Shown here: one piece after another, positions 14,918 to 18,900 of the stretch | Numbering within the stretch: the first letter of the stretch is position 1 | Layout of the letters: each line of letters starts with the position of its first letter | DNA from: Candidatus Gastranaerophilales bacterium | GTDB taxonomy: Bacteria > Cyanobacteriota > Vampirovibrionia > Gastranaerophilales > Gastranaerophilaceae | Reading direction: 5' to 3' | NCBI GenBank assembly: GCA_944324365.1 | Contig: CALUWA010000016.1 | Coordinates: forward strand, 1 to 44,980 | DNA: 44,980 nt | Program-made: the position numbers and the translations under genes | The notes under the pieces: model-generated | The model's input: the letters and a program-made list of their open reading frames with translations, nothing else | Databases searched by the model: none | What the model was told of the DNA's origin: nothing

Positions 14918-16084
14918 TCAACAATCCGAAGAACAAGGCAGCTTAAACCAAAACGTACTTCCATGATTTAATTTCGACTTAAATCCGATTTCGCCGTTAT
15001 GTGCATTTACAATCATTTTACAAAGTGCCAGACCGACACCGGAGCCTTGCTGACGCTTAAACTGATTACGGTTAACCTGCGAAAAGAAGTTAAATATTTG
15101 CGAGTAGTCTTTTTTTCTTATGCCATCGCCGCTGTCTTTTATTTCAAATATAAAATTTTTACACTCATCAATATAAGAAACAATTGTAACGGCACCGCCT
15201 GATTTATTAAATTTTACAGCATTTGATATAAGGTTATAAATTAACTGTTTAAAACGGCGCACATCGGCATAAATTTCAACATCCATTAACGTATAAGAAA
15301 AATTTATATTCTTAACCTTTATCTGTTCATCAAAACTAAGAATAATATCTTCGACAATTTCTTTCGGGTAAAAATATTCATAATTAAGCTCCAATTTTCC
15401 AAACTCGGCACGCGCCATATCCAAAATATCCTGAATTAAACTCAGCAAAAATTTTGCGCTTTTATTTATATTATCAATATATTTATATTCAGAATCCCTG
15501 CCCGCCAGCTTGGATTTAAGGATATCAGAAAATCCAATAATAGAATTCAGAGGAGTTTTATACTCGTGGGAAATACTTGCCAAAAACTGGATTTTTTGTT
15601 TATTTGTCTTATCCAAGGCCTCCTCAAGCATAATAATATCAAGCCGTGAATTAAAGTTTTCCATTATTATATCAATAAGCGGTTTAAACTTATGATTAAA
15701 ATCCGTTTTGTTTGAAATAACAGTAACAAATCCGACTAAATCTTCTCTTGAAATAACAGGCGCAATTATAACGTTATCTTTTGACATTTTATAAAAGAAA
15801 TCAAGGATTTCTGCCGTATCATAAGAATTTGAAAATAAATCCGCCCAAAGCTCTGCGATATCTTCAGCTGTCTTTTTAACAGAGTCTGAAAGTTTTGGTG
15901 CCGATTTAACACAATTCAACAGTACCTTGTTCGTTTCTAGATTAATAATAAAAACACTACAATATTTTGCATGCAATGTATTCAAAACTCCCATGACCAA
16001 TTCATTTGCTAATTCTTTCTGCGACTTAATTGTATTAAGTTTCTTCAAAAATTTACACAAGAATTTTTCATACAAAATATTCAT
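14918..16084 (-). CDS. Soluble sensor histidine kinase with GAF-like domain
   Basis: A 388-aa kinase. Residues 20-150 look like a GAF-type sensor domain (LNTLHAKYCSVFIINLETNK; VIIAPVISREDLVGFVTVIS). HisKA follows with the phospho-acceptor His173 in FLASISHEYKTPLNSIIGFS, then HATPase_c with N-box (QLIYNLISNAVKF), G1 (DSGDGI) and G2 (GSGVGLAL). No membrane helix, so it senses something in the cytoplasm. No response regulator is adjacent. The start at 16084 is preferred: upstream codons belong to the divergent gmk gene, and a -10 box ends 7 bases before this ATG, which would make a leaderless message. No ribosome site precedes it. Confidence 0.88.
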   Translation of the reverse strand: MNILYEKFLCKFLKKLNTIKSQKELANELVMGVLNTLHAKYCSVFIINLETNKVLLNCVKSAPKLSDSVKKTAEDIAELWADLFSNSYDTAEILDFFYKMSKDNVIIAPVISREDLVGFVTVISNKTDFNHKFKPLIDIIMENFNSRLDIIMLEEALDKTNKQKIQFLASISHEYKTPLNSIIGFSDILKSKLAGRDSEYKYIDNINKSAKFLLSLIQDILDMARAEFGKLELNYEYFYPKEIVEDIILSFDEQIKVKNINFSYTLMDVEIYADVRRFKQLIYNLISNAVKFNKSGGAVTIVSYIDECKNFIFEIKDSGDGIRKKDYSQIFNFFSQVNRNQFKRQQGSGVGLALCKMIVNAHNGEIGFKSKLNHGSTFWFKLPCSSDC

Positions 16085-16086
16085 TG

Positions 16087-16096
16087 TATAATTATA
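16087..16096. promoter_or_regulatory. Palindromic shared -10 box, bidirectional leaderless promoter
   Basis: TATAATTATA (16087-16096) is a perfect palindrome and gives a TATAAT in each direction: 16087-16092 for gmk and 16096-16091 for the kinase. Each is exactly 6 bases from its ATG (16099 and 16084), so a start 7 bases after the -10 box would fall on the A of both ATGs. Weak -35 matches exist (TTTTCA at 16065-16070 for gmk; TTTACC at 16119-16114 for the kinase). Confidence 0.55.
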
Positions 16097-16098
16097 AT

Positions 16099-16665
16099 AT
16101 GAACAAAAATTCAGGTAAAAAATTATTTGTGATATCAGGTTCATCAGGTGTCGGCAAAGGAACAGTTTTAAAAGAATTTCTGAAACGCAACCCTAGTTTT
16201 ATGCTTTCAATTTCCTGTACAACAAGGAACCCCAGAGAAGGGGAAATTGACGGCGTAAACTACTTTTTCCTGACACGGGAAGAATTTAAAAAATGCATAG
16301 ATGAAAATAAATTCCTTGAATGGGCTGAATTTGCAGGAAACTATTACGGCACAAAGAAGAAATATATAAACCAATGCCTTGAAGAAGGTAAAGACATCAT
16401 TCTTGAAATTGAAACAAAAGGAGCACTCCAGGTAAAAAAACAAATGCCTGAAGCGGTTTTGATATTTATAGCTCCGCCGTCATTGGAAACCTTGGAAGCC
16501 AGACTGCGCGGCAGGCACACAGAAGACGAGGCAACAATCCAAAAACGCCTGAGTGAAGTTAAGGCCGAACTTGAGCTGGCAAAACAGTATGATTACAGAG
16601 TAATTAACGACAGCCTTCAAACAGCGGTTGAAGAACTTGAAAAAATCATAACCGGAGAACAGTAA
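16099..16665 (+). CDS. gmk: Guanylate kinase
   Basis: A 188-aa guanylate kinase (GMP + ATP to GDP + ADP). P-loop SGSSGVGKGT near the N-terminus, GMP-binding segment SCTTRNPREGEIDGVNYFF, lid region around RLRGRHTEDEATIQKRL and the C-terminal YDYRVINDSL are all typical. The ATG at 16099 has no ribosome site and lies 14 bases from the divergent kinase start. coaBC follows with no gap (gmk stop 16663-16665, ATG at 16666). In many bacteria rpoZ separates gmk and coaBC; it is absent here. Confidence 0.96.
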   Translation: MNKNSGKKLFVISGSSGVGKGTVLKEFLKRNPSFMLSISCTTRNPREGEIDGVNYFFLTREEFKKCIDENKFLEWAEFAGNYYGTKKKYINQCLEEGKDIILEIETKGALQVKKQMPEAVLIFIAPPSLETLEARLRGRHTEDEATIQKRLSEVKAELELAKQYDYRVINDSLQTAVEELEKIITGEQ

Positions 16666-18597: not shown

Positions 18598-18900
18598 ATG
18601 AAAAATATAAAAGACTTTTGTCTAACGGAAATAATAGAACAAGAATTAAAAACGGAAGATGACATAAAAGAATGGTTATCTTTGAATTTAGAAGCGTATT
18701 TAGAAGACGGCAACTTAAATGCCTTTGTTCGTTCACTTGAATATGTAGTCCGGGCAAAGGATAATATCTCTAATTTATCTAAAAAAACAGGTATTTCAAG
18801 AAGTAATTTATATGCAATATTTAAAGGCGAAGTTACTCCGCAATTTGATACGGTATTAAAAGTATTAAAGGAATTAGGATATACATTAAAAGTCGCATAA
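18598..18900 (+). CDS. HigA-type (XRE) addiction-module antitoxin, no toxin beside it
   Basis: A 100-aa DNA-binding protein of the probable-addiction-module-antidote type (COG3636/HigA). The N-terminal half (LTEIIEQELKTEDDIKEWLS; YLEDGNLNAFVRSLEYVVRA) matches the family, and the C-terminal helix-turn-helix reads NISNLSKKTGISRSNLYAIF. The family partner, a HigB/RelE-like toxin gene, is normally directly upstream. Here only 80 bases lie between the NIF3-like gene and this ATG, and the next gene downstream is on the other strand, so it is an orphan. GAAAGGAATATAAC gives a good ribosome site. It may now be only a regulator. Confidence 0.88.
   Translation: MKNIKDFCLTEIIEQELKTEDDIKEWLSLNLEAYLEDGNLNAFVRSLEYVVRAKDNISNLSKKTGISRSNLYAIFKGEVTPQFDTVLKVLKELGYTLKVA

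Follow-up and report, generated by a model that had tools for sequence, protein, structure and literature searches.

The 14-bp gap between gmk and a divergent histidine kinase gene is very probably a bidirectional sigma70-type promoter core serving two leaderless mRNAs, as judged from the sequence and its conservation in relatives. The two genes are found in the window, i.e., the whole stretch of 44,980 nucleotides that was analyzed, which belongs to a Candidatus Gastranaerophilales genome of 2.05 Mb (GC 36.7% in the sampled part). The gmk gene (16099–16665, plus strand) encodes a guanylate kinase of 188 aa (Pfam Guanylate_kin PF00625, E 4.7e-52) and is followed downstream by coaBC-like and then NIF3-like genes. 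The histidine kinase gene (14918–16084, minus strand) encodes a protein of 388 aa with the Pfam domains HisKA and HATPase_c. Both identities had been proposed from the sequence alone and are borne out by these Pfam matches. Downstream of the gmk-coaBC-NIF3 genes, positions 18598–18900 (plus strand) encode an antitoxin-like HTH protein (dnstrm_HI1420, PF21716).

The Gap, the Boxes, and the Start Codons

Read directly, positions 16082–16101 are CAT-TG-TATAATTATA-AT-ATG. The original prediction described a palindromic box midway between divergent ATGs 14 bp apart, with TATAAT 6 nt before each, and this is exact in the sequence. The predicted -10 element of gmk (TATAAT, 16087–16092, plus strand) and that of the histidine kinase (TATAAT, 16091–16096, minus strand) each end 6 nt 5′ of the respective ATG, and the two boxes overlap by 2 bp (16091–16092). 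Overlapping -10 elements on opposite strands, the feature by which bidirectional promoters are recognized, are therefore present at 16087–16092 (+) and 16096–16091 (-). The predicted shared intergenic promoter is the 14 bp tgtataattataat (16085–16098, no strand assigned). The kinase -10 box lacks a TGN, and the base 5′ of the kinase ATG is an A, not the favored T. Matches to a TTGACA-like -35 element of at least 4/6, with spacers of 15–19 bp allowed, were counted for gmk in 19/31 loci and for the kinase in 10/31, with about 25% expected at random; this is background level for the kinase and modest for gmk, and neither gene has a good -35. In addition to the pair named at first, a third TATAAT abuts the gmk ATG on the plus strand (16093–16098). 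It was rejected as a functional box and is judged incidental, because its fifth base is unconstrained in relatives (A26 C2 G2 T1).

The gmk start codon is placed at 16099–16101 (plus strand), where the N-terminus is conserved. A TTG at 16084, taken as the gmk start by the ORF lister, sits 5′ of the gmk -10 box. For the kinase, the start codon is placed at 16082–16084 (minus strand). In the window, the kinase frame can be extended 5′ as far as an ATG at 16144, which lies within the opposite-strand gmk; the position of this ATG is not conserved among relatives. As 18 of 34 relatives have no possible upstream in-frame start, 16084 is likely the kinase start. No SD-like sequence was detected before gmk (0/34) or before the kinase (0/34) across the divergent loci, in agreement with the earlier claim that neither gene has a ribosome site.

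RNA polymerase would load on the 14-bp core in either orientation, using two -10 elements, one per strand, whose downstream ends overlap by 2 bp. Given the 6 nt between either box and its ATG, transcription is predicted to start at the A of the ATG on both sides (16099 for gmk and 16084 for the kinase), which places the two start sites 15 bp apart. The gmk and kinase mRNAs would then be translated as leaderless messages, without an SD, and polymerases in opposite orientation would be mutually exclusive.

The Reverse Box Accompanies the Kinase

The comparison set consisted of 92 gmk loci of the family from about 40 genera. The kinase is divergent and adjacent in 34 of these loci and absent from that place in the other 58. 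A reverse -10 box was scored when at least 5/6 positions matched, A2 and T6 were present, and the box lay 5–7 nt from the kinase ATG or at the matching place. By this definition it is present in 31/34 kinase-bearing and 0/58 kinase-free loci (Fisher probability 2.6e-14, with the relatedness of the loci ignored), and it is missing from all 27 kinase-free loci that retain a gmk box at 5–7 nt. A looser count, used in the tree test below, gave 33/34 and 3/58. The gmk box is found at 5–7 nt in 59/92 loci, both kinase-bearing and kinase-free, and at exactly 6 nt in all 12 congeners that have gmk.

Of the 34 kinase-bearing loci, 31 have a gap of exactly 14 bp, and in these, columns 1–8, 11, 12, and 14 are invariant (11/14). 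Variation is confined to columns 9 and 10 (positions 4 and 3 of the reverse hexamer) and to the spacer column 13, while T1, A2, and T6 of the reverse hexamer never change. From the alignment, the freedom of just these hexamer positions is the pattern expected of a -10 box. By comparison, where the kinase is missing and the gmk box lies at 6 nt (19 loci), columns 9–13 are free to vary. The shared -10 box is strongly supported by these sequence comparisons, the reverse box being retained only where the kinase is present.

Conservation of the gap through recent descent alone was ruled out because fourfold-degenerate gmk sites, unlike the gap, are close to saturation: between genera of the kinase-bearing set, these sites are about 40% identical, and 0/28 are invariant. 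On the gmk tree, kinase presence changes at least 10 times, with five of the changes forced by well-supported branches. Across these independent contrasts, the presence of the reverse box agrees with that of the kinase in an average of 4.8 of the five, and the gmk box shows no such agreement; the corresponding p of 0.0625 is the minimum attainable with five supported contrasts, so that p < 0.05 is unreachable.

These data bear on the possibility that the site drives gmk alone, in which case the kinase would have its promoter somewhere else and the symmetry would simply result from an AT-rich gap. It is true that kinase-free loci retain the gmk box and that -35 matches for the kinase do not exceed background. 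However, the tracking of the kinase by the reverse box, its invariant T1, A2, and T6, and the near saturation of the gmk fourfold sites make this explanation very improbable.

We also asked whether the kinase had moved. Relocation elsewhere in the kinase-free congeners was rejected, the best matches being about 35% identical and not orthologous; no kinase ortholog was found anywhere in the kinase-free genomes of the window's genus. In another genus (g3, loci L186 and L187), the gmk/kinase gap is 17 bp, tgtataataagtatact, and both boxes lie about 9 nt from the ATGs; exact leaderless spacing is therefore not universal. Besides this gmk, the g3 genomes have another copy that is more distant.

A Predicted Class of Leaderless Genes in the Family

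The spacing between box and start codon was examined genome-wide in a 443-kb sample containing 349 ORFs, using hexamers with at most one mismatch from TATAAT. The counts show a peak at a distance of exactly 6 nt from the first ATG, where 24/349 ORFs have such a hexamer (14 exact). This is about 7% of sampled genes vs. 0.7% at control ATGs, with low counts at neighboring distances; as the ORF calls are mechanical, the 7% applies, as an estimate, to genes that truly start at their first ATG. Many of the 6-nt boxes are preceded by TGN. An SD-like sequence is found in 6% of genes with the 6-nt box vs. 58% of the others, a T at -1 in 88% vs. 56%, and a divergent upstream neighbor in 17/33 vs. 94/307. 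The absence of an SD, the T at -1, and the divergent neighbor are the marks that would be expected if the gene opens a transcription unit and its RNA starts at the A of the ATG. TATAAT-like hexamers also peak immediately 5′ of the ATG (15/349 ORFs), but several of these ORFs show an SD-like sequence and then an AT-rich spacer.

The same signal was found across the family. In 60 family genomes, TGNTATAAT-N6-ATG averages 19.8 occurrences per genome, compared with 4.2 for the N9 control and 2.5 for N6-GTG. In a comparison uncontrolled for base composition, other families of the class mostly show no such excess, one of them (f5) being weakly enriched. Moreover, divergent pairs with separate, back-to-back TATAAT-N6-ATG units were found in 28/97 family genomes, and one was found for the reversed control. 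Genes with the 6-nt box are thus predicted to form a leaderless class throughout the family, of which the gmk/kinase core would be one case. The original prediction of leaderless gmk and kinase messages is strongly supported by these sequence comparisons, through a 6-nt class that lacks the SD.

The palindrome could instead be an operator for a regulator, perhaps the response regulator of the kinase, and not a pair of -10 boxes. The site is indeed palindromic and is located between a signaling gene and a metabolic gene. Yet the TATAAT-N6-ATG unit precedes many unrelated genes in each genome, one half of the palindrome persists without the kinase, the variable positions are those that a -10 box tolerates, and no response regulator was recognized by Pfam among the neighboring proteins scanned. 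We regard an operator as the least probable of the explanations considered, and as most unlikely in itself.

Relation to Known Promoters and Leaderless Genes

Bidirectional promoters and leaderless genes are both known kinds. The symmetrical -10 promoters described by Warman, Grainger, and colleagues resemble the paired boxes of the window in having overlapping boxes on opposite strands (PMC12825309, PMC10268837). In those studies, bidirectional promoters have by definition start sites 7–25 bp apart, most commonly 18, 10, or 23 bp, and on chromosomes they are concentrated between divergent genes (PMC12825309, PMC10268837). The 15 bp predicted for the window site is inside the defined range but is not among the commonest distances. 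A further difference of the window site is that its two boxes overlap at their downstream ends, and leaderless transcripts are predicted in both directions.

Leaderless genes were reported in 207 of 953 bacterial genomes, with Cyanobacteria unlisted among the groups concerned (Zheng 2011, PMC3160421); many Cyanobacteria genomes have neither SD-led nor detectable leaderless starts (PMC3160421). The family studied here shares with the TA-led leaderless genes (PMC3160421; Deinococcus-Thermus, PMC12340547) a TA-like signal about 10 bp 5′ of the start codon, the lack of an SD, and a family-wide class. The positional peak of a TANNNT-type signal about 10 bp upstream, by which TA-led genes are recognized, was observed both genome- and family-wide. 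The gmk/kinase site differs from the TA-led genes in having one palindromic signal for two divergent, predicted leaderless genes.

Two further systems are comparable in part. The lysG/lysE genes of Mycobacterium tuberculosis (PMC5648196) are divergent, with overlapping promoters and one leaderless transcript, that of lysE. However, their gap of 108 bp holds a binding site for a regulator. The leaderless transcript comes from a second promoter, and the overlapping promoters do not give leaderless transcripts in both directions. The EcoRV restriction-modification genes (PMC5333194) likewise have two divergent promoters with overlapping polymerase sites but are controlled by a C protein; the leaderless AhdI C gene in the same paper belongs to a different, convergent system.

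No discussion of leaderless genes in Gastranaerophilales was found in the open-access literature searched, and only a paper on an archaeon was found to name leaderless genes and bidirectional promoters together. As far as this search reached, what is new is the fusion of the two into one conserved element and the predicted leaderless class in this lineage. If the start sites are confirmed, two divergent genes could hardly be arranged more compactly: a start codon, one palindromic box, and a start codon, 20 bp in all. The data also point to a leaderless mode of expression across a non-photosynthetic gut lineage related to Cyanobacteria, which would aid the annotation of start codons in Gastranaerophilales.

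Possible Competition between Polymerases

The original prediction went further and had the two genes compete for one polymerase site, tying nucleotide supply to a signaling kinase. That two polymerases are unable to share the site is physically plausible; the coupling itself is not supported by the present data and is weakened. For bidirectional promoters, it has been reported that opposing polymerases exclude each other, so that they cannot jointly occupy the promoter, and that activating one direction can lead to repression of the other (PMC12825309). This would be in keeping with gmk and the kinase regulating each other and thereby coupling GDP supply to signaling, as would the retention of the gmk/kinase arrangement across about ten genera. 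In the same 2026 study, however, competition was seen at none of the five tested E. coli bidirectional promoters under basal conditions, all being too weak for it (PMC12825309). In addition, many relatives without the kinase have an unchanged gmk box; the gmk promoter persists without the kinase, and the link is therefore not required for gmk. Shared DNA alone may also preserve the pair, since relocating either gene would break the promoter of the other. Mutual regulation of the two genes is, on balance, unlikely.

A broader proposal is that Gastranaerophilales regularly use leaderless mRNAs and that back-to-back leaderless pairs with a common palindromic -10 are direct switches of polymerase orientation, which couple the two genes, here gmk and the histidine kinase, and lock them together in evolution. 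We consider this proposal, taken as a whole, unlikely. If the start sites are confirmed, the gmk/kinase site would be a natural setting in which to test polymerase competition, since matched relatives without the partner gene are available.

Motif Counts and Other Loci with the Double Box

On its own, TATAATTATA is unremarkable, with 34 sites in the 2.05 Mb genome vs. 25 for the reversed control. The full arrangement CATNNTATAATTATANNATG was found in 54/383 family genomes and the reversed controls in none. Chance in an AT-rich genome was ruled out by the spacing controls together with conservation, which, on the sequence evidence, means that the double-box arrangement between gmk and the kinase is not fortuitous. 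The 30 loci with CATNNTATAATTATANNATG that were read include 17 gmk/kinase pairs, which come from several genera, and two examples of an unrelated pair; in most of the others, a long reading frame is present on just one side.

The unrelated pair shares the palindromic-box architecture, with CATGCTATAATTATAGCATG at 1501–1520 in loci L125 and L126 and a TGN on both sides. A serine recombinase gene (PF00239, PF07508) there diverges from an 83-aa gene of unknown family. Finally, the CATNNTATAATTATANNATG site (L130–L137) is where a transporter permease gene (BPD_transp_1) of genus g5 begins. On the other side of the site there is no more than a short, similar reading frame, in most cases MRERTYAKI or a close variant of it, which may encode a leaderless short peptide or may merely be the beginning of an unrelated transcript.
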